This document shows, one piece after another, positions 43,645-48,441 of a stretch of DNA of 64,000 nt. A model generated the notes under the pieces. The model ran no database searches and was not told the origin of the DNA. It worked only from the letters and a program-made list of their open reading frames with translations. This stretch comes from Bacteroidales bacterium MB20-C3-3. GTDB lineage: Bacteria; Bacteroidota; Bacteroidia; Bacteroidales; UBA932. Position 1 is the stretch's first letter. Every line of letters begins with the position of its first letter. A program made the position numbers and the translations under genes. The stretch is from the NCBI GenBank assembly GCA_035609245.1, contig CP141202.1, positions 930,001 through 994,000 on the forward strand, written 5' to 3'.

Positions 43645-44544
43645 ATGAAAAGAACAGTAATTAAAATAGATGAAGAGCTTTGCAACGGTTGCGGAAATTG
43701 TGTGGAGGGGTGTCATGAAGGTGCATTACAGCTTATTGACGGTAAGGCGGTGATGATAAGCGACCTCTATTGCGATGGTCTTGGAGCATGTATTGGTGAT
43801 TGCCCTGTTGGGGCAATTGAGCTTATTGAGAAAGAGACTGAACCATATAATGAGATTGCTGTAATGGAGAGAATACATGTAAAGGGTGAAAAAGTAGTTC
43901 TTGCTCATCTTCAGCATCTCAAAAATCACGGAGAGATGGAGTGGTTCAATCAGGGCGTTGAGTGGTGCCGGAAAAATAATCTCTCAATAGATTTATCAAA
44001 AATTACCGGTCCCGATAAACCAGCAACAACCGAACACAAAATCCCTGTTTCTACAGAGGGTAAAGGAATGGCTTGCGGATGCCCGGGATCAATGGAGAGA
44101 GATTTCAGAAGCATAGCACCTGCTGCTCCTTCCACTGTCACCTTCCAGCCCTCCGGAAATGTAAGTGAACTTAAACAGTGGCCTGTACAGTTACATCTGC
44201 TTAATCCTTCAGCCGGATACTTTCAGGGAAGCGATGTATTACTTGCATCTGACTGCTCATCCTTTACTCACGGATCTTTTCATCAAACTTTTCTGAAAAA
44301 CAAGACACTTGCTATAGCTTGTCCTAAACTGGACAGTAATCTTAACAGCTATGTTGAGAAACTAGTCTCTATGATTGATCAGTCAAAAATAAATACCCTT
44401 ACGGTTCTGATTATGGAGGTTCCTTGCTGCGGAGGACTTCTTCAAATCGCAAAGAGGGCAAAAGAGATGGCATCAAGGAACATCCCGCTGAAATTACTTG
44501 TGATGTCAATCAAAGGAGAGATAATAAAGGAAGAGTGGGTCTGA
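43645..44544 (+). CDS. 4Fe-4S ferredoxin-type protein with C-terminal redox domain
   Basis: 299 residues. The first cluster motif is Cys13, 16, 19, 23 (CNGCGNCVEGC). The second keeps Cys43, 49, 53 (CDGLGACIGDCP), but position 46, normally Cys, is Leu. A linker of about 100 residues contains further Cys (ACGCPG near 140-145). The C-terminal half has repeated Cys motifs: LLASDCSSFTHG, IACPKLDSNLN and EVPCCGGLLQI. The family is widespread in anaerobes as a putative electron-transfer or coenzyme-binding protein, without a firm function. It is the first gene of the thiol-redox neighbourhood and converges on doxX across a shared terminator. Confidence 0.82.
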   Translation: MKRTVIKIDEELCNGCGNCVEGCHEGALQLIDGKAVMISDLYCDGLGACIGDCPVGAIELIEKETEPYNEIAVMERIHVKGEKVVLAHLQHLKNHGEMEWFNQGVEWCRKNNLSIDLSKITGPDKPATTEHKIPVSTEGKGMACGCPGSMERDFRSIAPAAPSTVTFQPSGNVSELKQWPVQLHLLNPSAGYFQGSDVLLASDCSSFTHGSFHQTFLKNKTLAIACPKLDSNLNSYVEKLVSMIDQSKINTLTVLIMEVPCCGGLLQIAKRAKEMASRNIPLKLLVMSIKGEIIKEEWV

Positions 44545-44560
44545 ACCCCACTCTTATTTA
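44531..44560. terminator. Bidirectional terminator between ferredoxin and doxX genes
   Basis: A perfect 9-bp stem AAGAGTGGG/CCCACTCTT (44531-44539 with 44547-44555) overlaps the stop codons of both converging genes. It is followed on the plus strand by an ATTTATTT run. The T-tract is imperfect on both sides. Confidence 0.6.
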
Positions 44561-44982
44561 TTTCTGAAAAGTATTGAATCAAGAGAGTATTTGCCTGCTC
44601 CGGTTATCATCAATGATGCAAAAATTGTCAGATATATCAGAGAAAGCTCTTTTACCTGTAAAGGGTCTGATGCGTGTGCAACAAATGCAGCAACGCTCAT
44701 TGCCACAATAAGAGGAACAGCAGAGAGTCTTGTAAGCAAACCCAGAACTATGAACAGTGCAGCAATAAACTCGGCACCAATCAGCATAACAACTGAGAGG
44801 GTGGCACCCATTCCAACAGGGTCAAAACCACTCTCTACCATACCTTCAAAATTCTGAATTTTTGACCATCCGTGTGTCATCATCAAAACCCCGGCTGCAA
44901 CTCTGAGAATCAGCAAACCTAAAGATGCCGTACCCTCACCGGTTGACTTTCCAAAAAGAAAAAAATTAAGTAATTTTTTCAT
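44554..44982 (-). CDS. DoxX family membrane protein
   Basis: 142 residues from ATG 44982; an ATG two codons upstream at 44988 is equally possible. Four membrane helices are visible. The DoxX pattern is LGLLILRVAAGVLMMTHGWSKIQNF, followed by GAEFIAALFIVLGLLTRLSAVPLIVAM and the terminal FASLMITGAGKYSLDSIL. DoxX proteins relate to the small subunit of thiosulfate:quinone oxidoreductase and to redox-stress membrane complexes. The start is next to the DUF302 stop, so it is the last gene of the thioredoxin-MarR-DUF302-DoxX operon. Confidence 0.9.
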   Translation of the reverse strand: MKKLLNFFLFGKSTGEGTASLGLLILRVAAGVLMMTHGWSKIQNFEGMVESGFDPVGMGATLSVVMLIGAEFIAALFIVLGLLTRLSAVPLIVAMSVAAFVAHASDPLQVKELSLIYLTIFASLMITGAGKYSLDSILFRNK

Positions 44983-44989
44983 AATCATT

Positions 44990-45382
44990 TTATTTAATTA
45001 TTGGAGCCAGTATCTTTTCTATTTCATTAAATGCTATTGTCATTACCTCCTGTGTTATACCCCCTGCCTCTCGGGCAACTGATCCCGAATTCATTCTGGA
45101 TATCCATGTTTTACCGTCTGATGTCTCATACAGTGAAATTCTGCAAGGCATCAGAGATGAAAACAATCGTTCATCATCAAGAGATAACATTTTAACTGAA
45201 TACTCCGGGCGACAAACCTCCATAACGACCACAGGAAGAACATCAAATCCGTGATTTTTCAGAGAGTTATGAAGATGATGCGTGTGCATAATTTTCCAGT
45301 TAGCCTCAAGAAGCGACTTCTCAATTATTTCTACAGTATCTGTAAGGTTGTGATTACTCTCATTTTTTATAAACATATCCAT
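44990..45382 (-). CDS. DUF302 domain protein
   Basis: 130 residues. The region LPVVVMEVCRPEYSVKMLSLDDERLFSSLMPCRISLYE matches DUF302, a small alpha/beta family whose members often sit near thioredoxins, DoxX or c-type cytochromes. Both conserved family cysteines (EVC and MPC) are present. It is preceded by a 6-base gap from marR and followed at once by doxX. Function unknown; the context suggests thiol or sulfane-sulfur handling. Confidence 0.85.
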   Translation of the reverse strand: MDMFIKNESNHNLTDTVEIIEKSLLEANWKIMHTHHLHNSLKNHGFDVLPVVVMEVCRPEYSVKMLSLDDERLFSSLMPCRISLYETSDGKTWISRMNSGSVAREAGGITQEVMTIAFNEIEKILAPIIK

Positions 45383-45388
45383 AATAAA

Positions 45389-45745
45389 TCAAATTAAAGG
45401 TTTAATCATTGAGTTGAGAGGCTCTGAAAGTTGAATATTATCGTGTTCAATCTTTTCAAGCTTCTCCATCCCCGTTTTTGTAAGTTCAAAATACATCTGC
45501 CTTTTATCTCTCTCTCCAAGCACCCTGCTTATATACCCCTTCTCCTCAACAGATCTGAGCAATTTTGATGTGTTAGAACAAGTTAGATTTATTTCATCTG
45601 CTATTTCACCTGAAGATAGCCTCTTATCCCTTAAACAGCAAAGCACCATACCCTCGTTAAGGCATATTGAATGCTCATTATGAAACTTATGCTCGTAATC
45701 TGTTAGTGAGCGGAGGAGATCTCTAATGGCGCACAGTTTCTTCAT
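45389..45745 (-). CDS. MarR-type winged-helix regulator (copy A)
   Basis: 118 residues. The winged helix is LSSGEIADEINLTCSNTSKLLRSVEEKGYISRVLGERDKRQMYFELTKTG, with the DKRQM wing typical of MarR. Cysteines lie at 5, 28, 36, 37 and in NLTCSNT. Cys5 and Cys36 are shared with the divergent paralogue at 46378. It overlaps the thioredoxin gene by 4 bases. It probably represses its own operon through the palindrome at 46297-46313. Confidence 0.88.
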   Translation of the reverse strand: MKKLCAIRDLLRSLTDYEHKFHNEHSICLNEGMVLCCLRDKRLSSGEIADEINLTCSNTSKLLRSVEEKGYISRVLGERDKRQMYFELTKTGMEKLEKIEHDNIQLSEPLNSMIKPLI

Positions 45746-46239
45746 AACTTAAGCAGCGTTTTATTTATAGCATCTTTTATTACATTCTTTGGAAGTGCCC
45801 CCTGAGCTACCTGTGGATCCTCCCCCATCGGGATAAAGATCATTGTAGGAATGCTTCTTATTCCAAATGCTGATGCAAGTTCTCTCTCTGCCTCTGTATC
45901 TACTTTATATATGTATATCTTACCCTCATATTCAGCTGCAAGCTGCTCCAGGACAGGGGCCAGAGTTTTGCATGGTCCACACCAGTCTGCATAAAAATCT
46001 ACTATTGCCGGTTTATCTCCAAGATATTTCCATTCGTTAGGGTTCTCCTCATAGTTTACTACGAGTTTTAAAAACTCTGCCTTTGTAAGTTTAATAGTTT
46101 TTGTTTTTGAGTTTATAGCTGCCTCTGCAGAATTTAAACTATTGCTGACTTTAACATCTTCTCCCCCTTTTCCTGATCCGCAAGCAGGCAAAGTCATTAT
46201 AAGAAGCAGAAGTATTATTGAGAGACTCTTTATTTTCAT
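45742..46239 (-). CDS. Thioredoxin-fold lipoprotein
   Basis: 165 residues. The lipoprotein signal (LSIILLLLIMTLPAC, Cys about 20) is followed by a Gly/Ser/Glu linker. A complete thioredoxin domain has active site WCGPC in VDFYADWCGPCKTLAPVLEQLA and the cis-Pro in RSIPTMIFIP. It should reduce or shuttle disulfides at the periplasmic side of a membrane. First gene of its operon, divergent from the second MarR gene. Confidence 0.93.
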   Translation of the reverse strand: MKIKSLSIILLLLIMTLPACGSGKGGEDVKVSNSLNSAEAAINSKTKTIKLTKAEFLKLVVNYEENPNEWKYLGDKPAIVDFYADWCGPCKTLAPVLEQLAAEYEGKIYIYKVDTEAERELASAFGIRSIPTMIFIPMGEDPQVAQGALPKNVIKDAINKTLLKL

Positions 46240-46267
46240 ATCTTTTATATTAAAATTATTTCACATG

Positions 46268-46275
46268 CAAAAATA
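46268..46275 (-). promoter_or_regulatory. Probable promoter of the thioredoxin-MarR-DUF302-DoxX operon
   Basis: TATTTTTG on the minus strand (TAnnTTTG), 28 bases before the thioredoxin-lipoprotein start. The palindrome at 46297-46313 covers its -33 region. Confidence 0.55.
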
Positions 46276-46296
46276 ATAATTATTTCCATTAAAACA

Positions 46297-46313
46297 AATT
46301 TCCATTGGAAATT
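46297..46313. promoter_or_regulatory. MarR-type palindromic operator candidate
   Basis: A perfect 17-bp palindrome AATTTCCATTGGAAATT (8-bp arms about a single T) lies between the two divergent MarR operons. A second ATTTCCATT half-site lies at 46282-46290. The palindrome occupies the -33 region of the leftward promoter and the spacer of the rightward one, so one bound dimer could block both. Confidence 0.65.
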
Positions 46314-46314
46314 A

Positions 46315-46322
46315 TATTTTTG
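46315..46322 (+). promoter_or_regulatory. Probable promoter of the MarR-CoA-disulfide-reductase operon
   Basis: TATTTTTG on the plus strand, one base after the palindrome and 55 bases before the MarR ATG at 46378. Confidence 0.5.
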
Positions 46323-46377
46323 TTAAATCTGTAAATTTTGTATTATTTTGTAAGATTATTTATAATAGCAAATAATT

Positions 46378-46731
46378 ATGGAGGAGATTTGTAAAATTAA
46401 AGATCTGTACAGGACCTTGTACCTCTTTGAAAGAGAGTTCCAGACAAAGAATGATATTACAATTAACGAGGCTATGCTGCTGTGTGCTCTAAAGGACGAC
46501 ACCCCAAGAAGCGCTAACGATATTTGTGAATTTATTGGTCTTTCCAGCTCACGAGGCTCCAGAATAATAAATACTACAGAGCAGAAAGGATTTATTACCA
46601 GAACAATGGGAAAAGAGGACAAAAGACAGATGATCTTTACACTTACAGAGGAGGGCAAGGCAAAAATAACAGAGATGAGCAGCAAAAGTTTGGGAATTGG
46701 AAAGGAGCTGCAAAACCTATTAAATTTGTAA
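46378..46731 (+). CDS. MarR-type winged-helix regulator (copy B)
   Basis: 117 residues, clearly paralogous to the protein at 45389 (shared I-x-DL-x-R, INEAMLLCALKD versus LNEGMVLCCLRD, DKRQM). The winged helix is RSANDICEFIGLSSSRGSRIINTTEQKGFITRTMGKEDKRQMIFTLTEEG. Cys5 and Cys36 are conserved with copy A; Cys50 is its own. It lies 3 bases before the CoA-disulfide reductase gene, so it likely regulates that gene and itself. The ligand or oxidant sensed is unknown. Confidence 0.88.
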   Translation: MEEICKIKDLYRTLYLFEREFQTKNDITINEAMLLCALKDDTPRSANDICEFIGLSSSRGSRIINTTEQKGFITRTMGKEDKRQMIFTLTEEGKAKITEMSSKSLGIGKELQNLLNL

Positions 46732-46734
46732 TAA

Positions 46735-48441
46735 ATGAAGTATGTAATTATCGGAGGGGTAGCAGGAGGTGCTACCGTAGCTGCAAGAATAAGAAGAGTT
46801 GACGAAAAGGCTCAAATTGTATTATTTGAAAGAGGAGATTATATATCATATGCAAATTGCGGTTTACCCTACTACATAGGGAATATAATCCCTGAAAGAG
46901 AGCAACTTTTTGTTCAGACAGTTCAGGGAATAACAAGCAGGTATGATATAGACATAAGAGTAAGAAGCGAAGTAATCTCAATTAACAGGGAGACCCGGAG
47001 AGTTGAGGTTAAGGATAATCTAAACGGAGCAATATACTCTGAAAGTTATGACAAGCTTGTTCTTTCACCGGGTGCGGAGCCCTTAAAGCCACCTCTTCCC
47101 GGGCTGGACAATCCACGTCTCTTTACAATGAGAAATGTTCCAGATACTGACAAAATTAAAGAGCATATAAAGAGTAACAGTATAAGAAGTGCAATTATTG
47201 TCGGAGGAGGTTTTATTGGTCTTGAGATGGCTGAAAACCTCAGACATTTAGGGATTAAAGTTAATCTGATTGAGATGGCACCTCAGGTAATGGCTCATCT
47301 CGATTTTTCAATGGCCTCTATTGTTCACCTTGAGCTAAAAGCAAAAGGAGTTAAGCTACATCTCTCTAAAAGTGTTAAAGAGTTTAAAGATAGTGGTTCA
47401 TACATTGAAGCTCTTCTCGACGACGGTACAAGTATTTTTGCAGATATGGCAATATGGAGCATCGGGGTAAGGCCGGAAGTGAGCCTGGCTAGGGAGGCTG
47501 GTCTTGAAATTGGAACTACCGGAGGTATAAAAATCAATAAATATCTCCAAACATCTGATGAGAGCATATATGCTATTGGCGACGCAGTTGAGGTTACTCA
47601 CCTTGTAAGCGGCAAGCCTGTACTTATACCTCTTGCAGGTCCTGCCAATAAAATGGGGAGGATTGCTGCAGATAATATGGTATTCGGAAACAGGTCAGAG
47701 TACAAAGGATCAATAGGCACAGGAATAGCTAAAGTATTTGATCTTACTGTGGCATCCACAGGTATGAGTGGAAAGTGGCTGGAAAAAGAGGGTATTAAAC
47801 ATATTGACTCATATACCCACTCTGCCTCACACGCAGGTTACTATCCAAATGCTCTGCCTCTTTCTGTAAAAATTACATTTGCTCCCGATACCGGAAAGCT
47901 CCTTGGTGCTCAGGTTGTAGGTTTTGAGGGTGTTGATAAGAGAATTGAGATGTTTGCATCTGTACTCGGCAGAGGTGGCTCTGTTTATGACCTTATGGAG
48001 CTTGAACACGCCTACGCCCCACCATTTTCATCTGCAAAAGATCCGGTAAATATGGCCGGATTTGTTGCTGACAATATACTCTCCGGTAAAGTTAAAATTA
48101 CTACCTGGAGAGAAATTGAATACCTAAATCCTGAGAGAGATATACTTATTGATGTAAGGACTGCTGAGGAGCACATGGAGTCAGCCATACCCGGATCTGT
48201 TAACATCCCTCTTGATGAGATCAGATTAAGACTGGATGAGATACCTGCTGACAAAAGAGTAGTAATATACTGTGCCGTTGGTTTAAGAGGCTATCTGGCT
48301 GCAAGAATTCTGTCACAGAACGGATTTAAGAATGTTTTCAACCTCAGTGGAGGATACAAGACATATTCAGTTGCAACCGGACAAGAGTCAGCTTACAAAT
48401 ATTTCTCAGTAAGAATAACTTCCGGAGACGAGATAGAATAA
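46735..48441 (+). CDS. CoA-disulfide/CoA-persulfide reductase with C-terminal rhodanese domain
   Basis: 568 residues. The pyridine nucleotide-disulfide oxidoreductase core has FAD loop GGVAGGATVAARIRR, the single catalytic Cys42 in SYANCGLPYYIG, the NAD(P)H loop IIVGGGFIGLEMAENL, FAD motif YAIGDAVE and a dimerisation domain (KITFAPDTGKLLGAQVVG). Residues from about 462 are a rhodanese domain, with ILIDVRTAEEH and active Cys in YCAVGLRGY. Fusions of this type reduce CoA disulfide, CoA persulfide or polysulfide. It follows the MarR gene and precedes an acyltransferase gene by 6 bases. Confidence 0.93.
   Translation: MKYVIIGGVAGGATVAARIRRVDEKAQIVLFERGDYISYANCGLPYYIGNIIPEREQLFVQTVQGITSRYDIDIRVRSEVISINRETRRVEVKDNLNGAIYSESYDKLVLSPGAEPLKPPLPGLDNPRLFTMRNVPDTDKIKEHIKSNSIRSAIIVGGGFIGLEMAENLRHLGIKVNLIEMAPQVMAHLDFSMASIVHLELKAKGVKLHLSKSVKEFKDSGSYIEALLDDGTSIFADMAIWSIGVRPEVSLAREAGLEIGTTGGIKINKYLQTSDESIYAIGDAVEVTHLVSGKPVLIPLAGPANKMGRIAADNMVFGNRSEYKGSIGTGIAKVFDLTVASTGMSGKWLEKEGIKHIDSYTHSASHAGYYPNALPLSVKITFAPDTGKLLGAQVVGFEGVDKRIEMFASVLGRGGSVYDLMELEHAYAPPFSSAKDPVNMAGFVADNILSGKVKITTWREIEYLNPERDILIDVRTAEEHMESAIPGSVNIPLDEIRLRLDEIPADKRVVIYCAVGLRGYLAARILSQNGFKNVFNLSGGYKTYSVATGQESAYKYFSVRITSGDEIE

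Follow-up and report, generated by a model that had tools for sequence, protein, structure and literature searches.

A probable BmoR-type thiol/persulfide stress switch in doubled, divergent form in a Bacteroidales bacterium

Introduction

In Bacteroides fragilis, the MarR-family protein BmoR is reported to repress BF638R_0572, which encodes a coenzyme A (CoA)-disulfide/persulfide reductase with rhodanese, TusA and DsrE domains, by binding directly to a promoter that contains TTTCC inverted repeats (PMC6158253). According to the same report, the trxP operon (membrane protein, DoxDA and TrxP) rises in a bmoR mutant, which constitutes an indirect link to thioredoxin, and a bmoR/0572 double mutant is sensitive to diamide (PMC6158253). 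The word persulfide is absent from the main text of that paper, and a 2025 review names BmoR only as a thiol/disulfide regulator (PMC12632263). A related enzyme, the CoA persulfide reductase of Enterococcus faecalis, is described as acting on CoA persulfide and as needing the cysteines C42 and C508 (PMC9405070), and four MarR proteins (MarR, MexR, OhrR and MgrA) are reported to sense sulfane sulfur via cysteines (PMC11211675). Here, we describe a locus in a 64,000-nucleotide stretch of the genome of Bacteroidales bacterium MB20-C3-3 (contig CP141202.1, positions 930,001 to 994,000; the window), in which a thioredoxin operon and an operon for a CoA-disulfide/persulfide reductase with a rhodanese domain (CoADR-rhodanese) diverge from a 138-bp intergenic region, each with a MarR gene of its own (MarR-A and MarR-B, respectively).

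Judging from sequence and from analogy with the systems above, we think it likely that this locus is a doubled, divergent version of the BmoR-type switch that responds to thiol/persulfide stress, with repression and enzyme activities assigned by homology. The locus is real, conserved and functionally coherent. An earlier note on this DNA had regarded it as an undescribed system; its core, however, has been published as the BmoR switch of B. fragilis (PMC6158253), and what the window holds is a variant of that known switch and not a new system.

Results

The short MarR regulators of this locus belong to a group whose genes lie, with few exceptions, beside genes for CoADR or thioredoxin. A MarR gene was counted as linked if on its own strand there was a CoADR match no more than 1.3 kb away or a thioredoxin no more than 0.7 kb away; by this rule, 109 of 119 MarR genes are linked: 76 to CoADR, 31 to thioredoxin and two to both, with 10 linked to neither; in the two double cases, the thioredoxin stands beside a short rhodanese-only match. 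These genes come from 112 loci, the final set after removal of copies, which was assembled from several sources. In an order-level sample, 31 of 149 genomes have a MarR relative at E <= 1e-5, the window genome included, and wide regions were taken for the 17 best places outside the window genome, covering 15 of the 30 other matching genomes, with weaker places having E values of 4e-9 to 1e-5. In a family-level sample, 36 of 119 genomes match, again with the window genome, and 20 stretches were taken from 19 of the 35 others. Three regions were taken from four plasmid records found by tblastn, and a related-locus search contributed the best 80 of 281 relatives, nine of which were dropped as copies of other loci or of the window (L100, L102, L103, L107, L128, L150, L163, L167 and L169). 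Linkage holds in 14 of 17 loci (15 genomes) of the order sample and for 22 of 23 MarR genes of the family sample. The co-occurrence that the earlier note had expected is thus found for the core, a MarR gene with CoADR or thioredoxin.

Between the two operons lies a candidate operator, TTTCCATTGGAAA, and its pattern TTTCCNNNGGAAA is matched perfectly at only this one place in the window (46299-46311), with four other places at 9/10. We scored the 10 fixed positions of the pattern in 119 promoter stretches of up to 400 bp each, and found it at 9/10 or better in 67 stretches and perfect in 35; the reversed pattern reaches at least 9/10 in 0 of the 119 stretches, and over 200 rounds of shuffling a mean of 1.4 and a maximum of 5 stretches do so. 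Two loci, L036 and L038, are counted as lacking a site, with their operon start misplaced by reliance on a rhodanese-only match. Since both strands of seven divergent regions enter this tally, the number of sites is the stricter measure: of 35 perfect sites in 1,371,993 bp, 29 fall inside the 46,305 bp of promoter stretch (3.4% of the DNA), in 28 loci. Inspection by eye places two of the six outside sites (L038) about 400 bp before a rhodanese-thioredoxin-MarR gene row. Measured from the start codon, the best site of a stretch (at least 9/10) lies at a median of -71, and 61 of 67 fall within -95 to -20. A second, weaker site is favoured 16 bp downstream, with a mean score of 5.6/10 against a mean of 2.8 over offsets of at least 8 bp (65 regions); leaving aside +1 and -1, no offset exceeds +16 in mean score. 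This palindrome, common to the promoters, supports a predicted co-regulation of both arms.

On the thioredoxin side, the palindrome is built into what appears to be a promoter. In all 12 loci examined (the window, L062-L069, L101, L105 and L106), a palindrome with 8-10 of 10 matches is followed by TTTG, 19 nt and TAnnTTTG, a layout that we take to be the Bacteroidota promoter with its -33 and -7 elements. A locus outside those 12, from another genus of the family (L070), has its site placed differently, at -38. A MarR dimer bound to the palindrome would make contact with the thioredoxin promoter at its -33 element.

The regulators are clear paralogues with two strongly conserved cysteines. MarR-A and MarR-B share 35% identity over 115 amino acids (E 8e-28) and both match the winged helix/MarR families PF13463 and PF01047. 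Cys36 is kept in 119 of 119 MarR relatives and Cys5 in 117, and both are among the 13 invariant columns of a 26-row alignment, in agreement with the earlier note, which had singled out these two residues. The best solved matches of a MarR profile are 5hlg, 5hlh, 5hli and 4hbl, with SarZ, MgrA and OhrR lower; the protein of 5hlg and 5hli is presumably AbfR, with a redox role. The 5hlg alignment starts with position 8 at residue 19, and its ungapped extension puts Cys5 at residue 16, one off a cysteine at residue 15. Against the curated OhrR family NF052638, the two regulators score 20.3 and 20.6 bits with a cut-off of 200.

The window comes from a one-contig genome of 2.38 Mb. All six open reading frames (ORFs) of the locus are open, in divergent arms of four and two genes, at the positions given in Table 1, as the earlier note had read them. 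The leftward arm runs from 46239 through thioredoxin lipoprotein, MarR-A, DUF302 and DoxX; the rightward arm begins at 46378 with MarR-B, and the CoADR-rhodanese gene follows 3 nt after its end. The thioredoxin matches PF00085 at 93.7 bits and TIGR01068 at 109.7 bits (cut-off 96.8), and has an active-site CGPC at residues 87-90 and, by eye, a lipobox-like LPAC ending at Cys20. DoxX matches PF07681 at 69.6 bits and, weakly, the DoxD family PF04173 at 29.2 bits, which passes the cut-off of 22.7; its score of 22.4 bits against the NCBIfam thiosulfate:quinone oxidoreductase family NF041179 is below the cut-off of 300.

Table 1. Coordinates of genes and candidate regulatory elements in the window
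Feature	Position	Strand	Remarks
Main operator (candidate), A-type, TTTCCATTGGAAA	46299..46311	.	Palindrome TTTCC-N3-GGAAA; between the divergent operons
Second, half-matching operator site TTTCCATTAAAAC	46283..46295	.	Lies towards the thioredoxin gene, at 16 bp from the main palindrome
TTTG, -33-like element	46295..46298	-	Directly abuts the palindrome
TATTTTTG, -7-like element of the thioredoxin promoter	46268..46275	-	28 nt before the start codon
B-type operator-like site TTATTTATAATAGCAAATA	46356..46374	+	3 nt before the MarR-B start codon; resembles Dysgonomonas-group MarR-B promoter sites
DoxX-family membrane protein, 144 aa	44554..44988	-	Last gene of the thioredoxin operon
DUF302 protein, 130 aa	44990..45382	-	Cys57 and Cys80; PF03625 44.6 bits
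MarR-A, short MarR/HTH_27 regulator, 118 aa	45389..45745	-	Cys5/28/36/37/56; mostly thioredoxin-linked branch
Thioredoxin lipoprotein, 165 aa	45742..46239	-	Opens the leftward operon; shares 4 nt with MarR-A
MarR-B, short MarR/HTH_27 regulator, 117 aa	46378..46731	+	Cys5/36/50; mostly CoADR-linked branch
CoADR-rhodanese, 568 aa	46735..48441	+	Cys42 and Cys513

The reductase matches PF07992 (205.2 bits) and the rhodanese family PF00581 (63.8 bits). Among solved structures it matches 3icr with E 2.4e-174 over residues 2-548, and also 3nta and the E. faecalis CoA-persulfide reductase 8a56 (EfCoAPR). By number and domain, its Cys42 (SYANCGLPY) and Cys513 (VVIYCAVGL) are the counterparts of EfCoAPR C42 and C508, with the residue-by-residue alignment made to 3icr. 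Against the NCBIfam CoA-disulfide reductase equivalog TIGR03385 it scores 485.2 bits, below the cut-off of 578.8. By Pfam, the protein is without the C-terminal TusA and DsrE domains of longer relatives; of 67 non-genus reductases, 65 have at least 750 aa and the other two 464 and 699 aa, and TusA and DsrE are shown for one long relative, L065. The short form (556-571 aa) is found in seven of nine genus-like reductases, with or without MarR-B. Elsewhere in the window genome (C1:60.3-61.2 kb), stand-alone genes for TusA (86 aa) and DsrE_2 (195 aa) form part of a row that also holds genes of Hdr/Qmo-like appearance by eye (G000:C1:54000-67500; L218 1531-7239).

The window genome contains a second thioredoxin operon behind the operator. 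A perfect TTTCCNNNGGAAA is present at three places in this genome: the first is the locus itself; the second, C1:914037, precedes an ORF of 82 aa that has no evident role in redox; and the third, C1:767782, lies directly upstream of genes for DUF6132, a heavy-metal-associated (HMA) protein and a thioredoxin that is 74% identical to the core of the thioredoxin lipoprotein. The genome has five thioredoxin-family matches; two of the three strong ones (E <= 9e-27) lie behind the operator. A perfect site precedes the orthologous second operon in six of nine genus genomes (G235, G223, G194, G210, G257 and the window genome), a count of perfect sites only; in G210, no HMA match was found in this operon, and a long overlapping frame, which we take as spurious, contains the site. 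Eleven further stretches around perfect sites comprise five copies of the second thioredoxin operon and six in which the site lies inside ORFs (L200, L201, L203, L205, L206 and L207). The notion that the palindrome marks a large genome-wide regulon was rejected, as the pattern is about as common as a control pattern, with 3 against 4 occurrences in this genome and 55 against 45 over nine genus genomes. The second operon (L088 3687-8738; G000:C1:763.7-768.7 kb) adjoins ArsR-, phosphatase- and arsenite-pump-like genes, as judged by eye, and a DsbD_2 protein, and in some relatives a methyltransferase lies within it.

A maximum-likelihood tree of the 119 MarR proteins (120 columns; many forks unresolved and several branches long) divides them, with support of 96/93, into one side of 46 rows that includes MarR-A and another of 73 rows that includes MarR-B. 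On the MarR-A side, 27 proteins are thioredoxin-linked, 14 CoADR-linked (12 from Bacteroides), two both and three neither; on the MarR-B side, 62 are CoADR-linked, four thioredoxin-linked and seven neither. The 12 Bacteroides proteins encoded after CoADR thus fall on the MarR-A side (96/93) and not with MarR-B, BmoR itself not being among the rows, and one such protein of B. finegoldii (L032) is on the MarR-B side on a long branch. Bacteroides CoADR>MarR operons with a perfect palindrome are L032, L164-L166, L170-L173, L175 and L177-L179, and L162 has 9/10. The MarR-B proteins of the window's genus group with a 21-row, Dysgonomonas-rich group (29 rows together, support 99/83). The CoADR proteins of the genus form one group (99, FastTree) regardless of whether MarR-B is present, and so CoADR looks inherited and MarR-B inserted; alternatively, MarR-B may be ancestral and have been lost in some members of the genus.

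Operators also tend to differ between the two branches. Perfect palindromes are found in 21 of 46 MarR-A-side promoters, in all eight genus-like MarR-B promoters, which share the palindrome with the thioredoxin operon (in L104 a contig end removes that operon), and in six of 65 other MarR-B-side promoters, five of these six from rows outside the 66-row MarR-B clade. In the Dysgonomonas-group MarR-B promoters, TATTTnnTAnTAGCAAATA is found about 25 nt upstream of the start. Scanned with a matrix built from 21 of these promoters, the window gives its best match at 46356-46374, just before MarR-B, with a score of 17.9, the next being 11.6. At -21/-22 in six other MarR-B loci, the same matrix scores 13.5, 13.5, 11.1, 10.6 and 8.0 (the last in L062), and the site is lost in L101; in four relatives with CoADR and without MarR-B, the best place for the matrix is elsewhere than the CoADR start. 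A looser B-type pattern occurs at six places in the genome against three for its control. A clean division into A-type and B-type operators was considered and rejected on account of the A-type site of L065, which scores 17.3 on the B-type matrix.

Gene content varies within the genus. We considered L062-L069, from genomes assigned to the window's genus by genome search, together with L100, L101 and L104-L106, from Bacteroidales or Bacteroidetes bacteria, which synteny and similarity led us to count as genus-like. The window, its near-copy L100, L062, L064 and L105 have the complete divergent set, MarR-B included; only MarR-B and CoADR are visible in L104 because a contig end cuts the locus there. 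MarR-B is present with no CoADR match after it in L101, L063 (G223) and L106, MarR-B is absent and CoADR divergent from the thioredoxin operon in L065, L067, L068 and L069, and L066 has neither. L067 and L068 show no DUF302 match here. Given this variation, the stable core is thioredoxin-MarR-A, usually with CoADR, while MarR-B, DUF302 and DoxX come and go. Among the fetched loci, DUF302 is matched in genus-like loci only, and DoxX in those and in L070 of the same family; a whole-genome search finds DUF302 in nine of 119 family genomes, eight of them in the window's genus and one in another. DUF302 and DoxX are accessories of this genus, and the earlier note's expectation that all six families would occur together fails on them; we accordingly rejected the six families as one fixed system. 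In L067 (8479-9642; G157), a transposase-like 387-aa ORF lies between MarR-A and DoxX, where relatives have DUF302, and in a genus member without DUF302 in the thioredoxin operon, a DUF302 gene lies outside it (L219 3966-4397; G257:C32).

The flanks of the locus (4Fe-4S protein, lipocalin, acyltransferase and AMP ligase) are largely syntenic among genus relatives. At 43645-44544 on the plus strand of the window, a gene convergent with DoxX encodes a protein of 299 aa that has 14 cysteines and matches a 4Fe-4S dicluster-type Pfam family; this gene keeps the same place in genus relatives. Two loci, L044 (8075-14761; G059) and L176 (Bacteroides pyogenes), have MarR relatives without CoADR or thioredoxin directly adjoining. 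In L044, the MarR gene ends an operon that by eye appears to encode an outer-membrane/RND efflux system, with TTTCCTAAGGAAA, one of the six perfect palindromes outside promoter stretches, about 50 bp in front, a hint that the regulon may include an efflux branch.

Discussion

The earlier note had proposed a thiol/persulfide response joining two arms. A thiol/persulfide-linked divergent locus with two MarR paralogues is supported by the linkage and the conserved cysteines, and co-regulation of the arms by the palindrome common to the promoters. We infer DNA binding, the inducer, the Cys5/Cys36 switch and the assignment of paralogues to sites along the following lines. MarR-A, and probably also MarR-B, would bind TTTCCATTGGAAA as a dimer between the operons, where it would cover the thioredoxin promoter and lie upstream of the MarR-B/CoADR promoter; from this position, we propose, both operons and with them both regulator genes would be repressed. 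Thiol oxidation or persulfidation would then modify Cys5, with Cys36 as a possible partner, and the repressors would release. The envelope arm (the lipoprotein thioredoxin, DoxX and perhaps DUF302) would reduce disulfides or persulfides outside the cytoplasm, and in the cytoplasmic arm CoADR-rhodanese would use NAD(P)H to reduce the persulfide or disulfide of CoA. With the return of reduced thiols, the system would be shut down by the regulators, which are also products of the operons.

Why there are two regulators admits of more than one answer. It is conceivable, and we advance it only tentatively, that they form a two-sensor switch, in which long-diverged MarR paralogues with five and three cysteines act on two kinds of operator within one 138-bp region and the arms are released stepwise by differing degrees or kinds of thiol oxidation or persulfidation; on this view, one sub-branch of the genus would have gained MarR-B, along with an operator type of its own, at a point between CoADR and a thioredoxin/MarR-A operon that already existed. 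We are doubtful of an arrangement in which MarR-A alone controls both arms through the palindrome and MarR-B is a later arrival that mainly represses itself via the B-type site and is otherwise redundant or decaying. Four genomes (G246, G257, G157 and G176) do manage with a single such MarR and no MarR-B here, and in them thioredoxin-MarR-A is divergent from CoADR with an A-type site of 8-10 of 10. The three loci without a CoADR match after MarR-B, the drop of the B-type score from 17.9 in the window to 8-13.5 in five of six other loci and its loss in the sixth, and the way perfect A-type sites follow MarR-A-side regulators point in the same direction. MarR-B is nevertheless open in the eight de-duplicated genus-like loci that carry it and keeps both Cys5 and Cys36, and therefore seems to be under constraint.

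The nature of the signal may also be questioned. The regulators could sense a metal or toxic ligand (arsenite, mercury, copper or an electrophile) with the thiols of Cys5 and Cys36 as ligands, and this would sit well with the HMA protein and arsenic-like neighbours (by eye) of the second operator-bearing operon and with the efflux-like operon of L044. We hold this to be unlikely in view of the linked core, CoADR-rhodanese and thioredoxin, and of the diamide phenotype reported for the B. fragilis double mutant (PMC6158253). It is very improbable that the palindrome serves an unrelated regulator, or is a promoter element, with the MarR genes as passengers: the absence of genome-wide enrichment would fit, but in the fetched loci the site goes with the MarR operons, its median distance to the start codon being -71, and BmoR itself is reported to bind a promoter with TTTCC inverted repeats (PMC6158253). 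A chance neighbourhood of unrelated redox genes can be dismissed, because the arrangement is syntenic in the genus and the linkage in 109 of 119 relatives contradicts it.

Several observations weigh against a BmoR-type thiol/persulfide switch in doubled form, or against parts of it. BmoR is reported to have given no gel shift with the B. fragilis trxP promoter, and the bmoR single mutant to have wild-type diamide resistance; survival in oxygen is reported to be unchanged (PMC6158253). Conserved cysteines can be structural. The earlier note's statement that every non-regulator gene is redox- or sulfur-linked is loose, as DUF302 is without an assigned function and the DoxX protein here has zero cysteines. 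The perfect palindrome is rare on the MarR-B side outside the genus, and MarR-B may therefore not bind it; A-type and B-type sites overlap in score, as in L065, and across whole genomes the pattern does not stand out from its control. Many of the loci are close relatives, so that our counts are not counts of independent events.

Read in this way, the BmoR-type switch provides a candidate for the operator, TTTCC-N3-GGAAA plus a second half-site at a distance of 16 bp, and puts forward two cysteines as possible sensors. The thiol-stress regulon to which they would belong is spread through Bacteroidales, and its one known published member has been connected to thioredoxin only indirectly. If the reading is true, thioredoxin operons in many Bacteroidales would be direct targets, and two small proteins with a DNA fragment of 138 bp would suffice to study the sensing step. 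Such a divergent pair would, moreover, illustrate how an existing switch gains a second sensor.

Among the titles listed in searches of the openly licensed PMC literature, none concerns a two-MarR form or an operator of the thioredoxin operon in Bacteroidales. The window MarR proteins differ from OhrR, SarZ, MgrA and the protein of 5hlg/5hli in their short length (117-118 aa), invariant Cys36 and linkage to CoADR or thioredoxin. CstR of E. faecalis is not known to be a MarR protein. The locus is nonetheless like the CstR/CoAPR system in having a CoADR-rhodanese with two catalytic cysteines, there reported to stand under a reactive-sulfur-sensing repressor (PMC9405070). It resembles the BmoR system most closely, with a MarR gene beside a CoADR-rhodanese gene, a TTTCC inverted repeat in the promoter, and a linked exported thioredoxin and DoxD-type membrane protein, and for B. 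fragilis a thiol/disulfide phenotype has been published. The BmoR system has one MarR, with CoADR upstream in the same operon, whereas the window has two MarR paralogues in divergent arms; the reductase there carries TusA and DsrE, whereas here it has 568 aa without both, and DUF302 is added; and the trxP operon lies elsewhere and was not shifted by BmoR, whereas here the thioredoxin operon is adjacent and bears a perfect palindrome.

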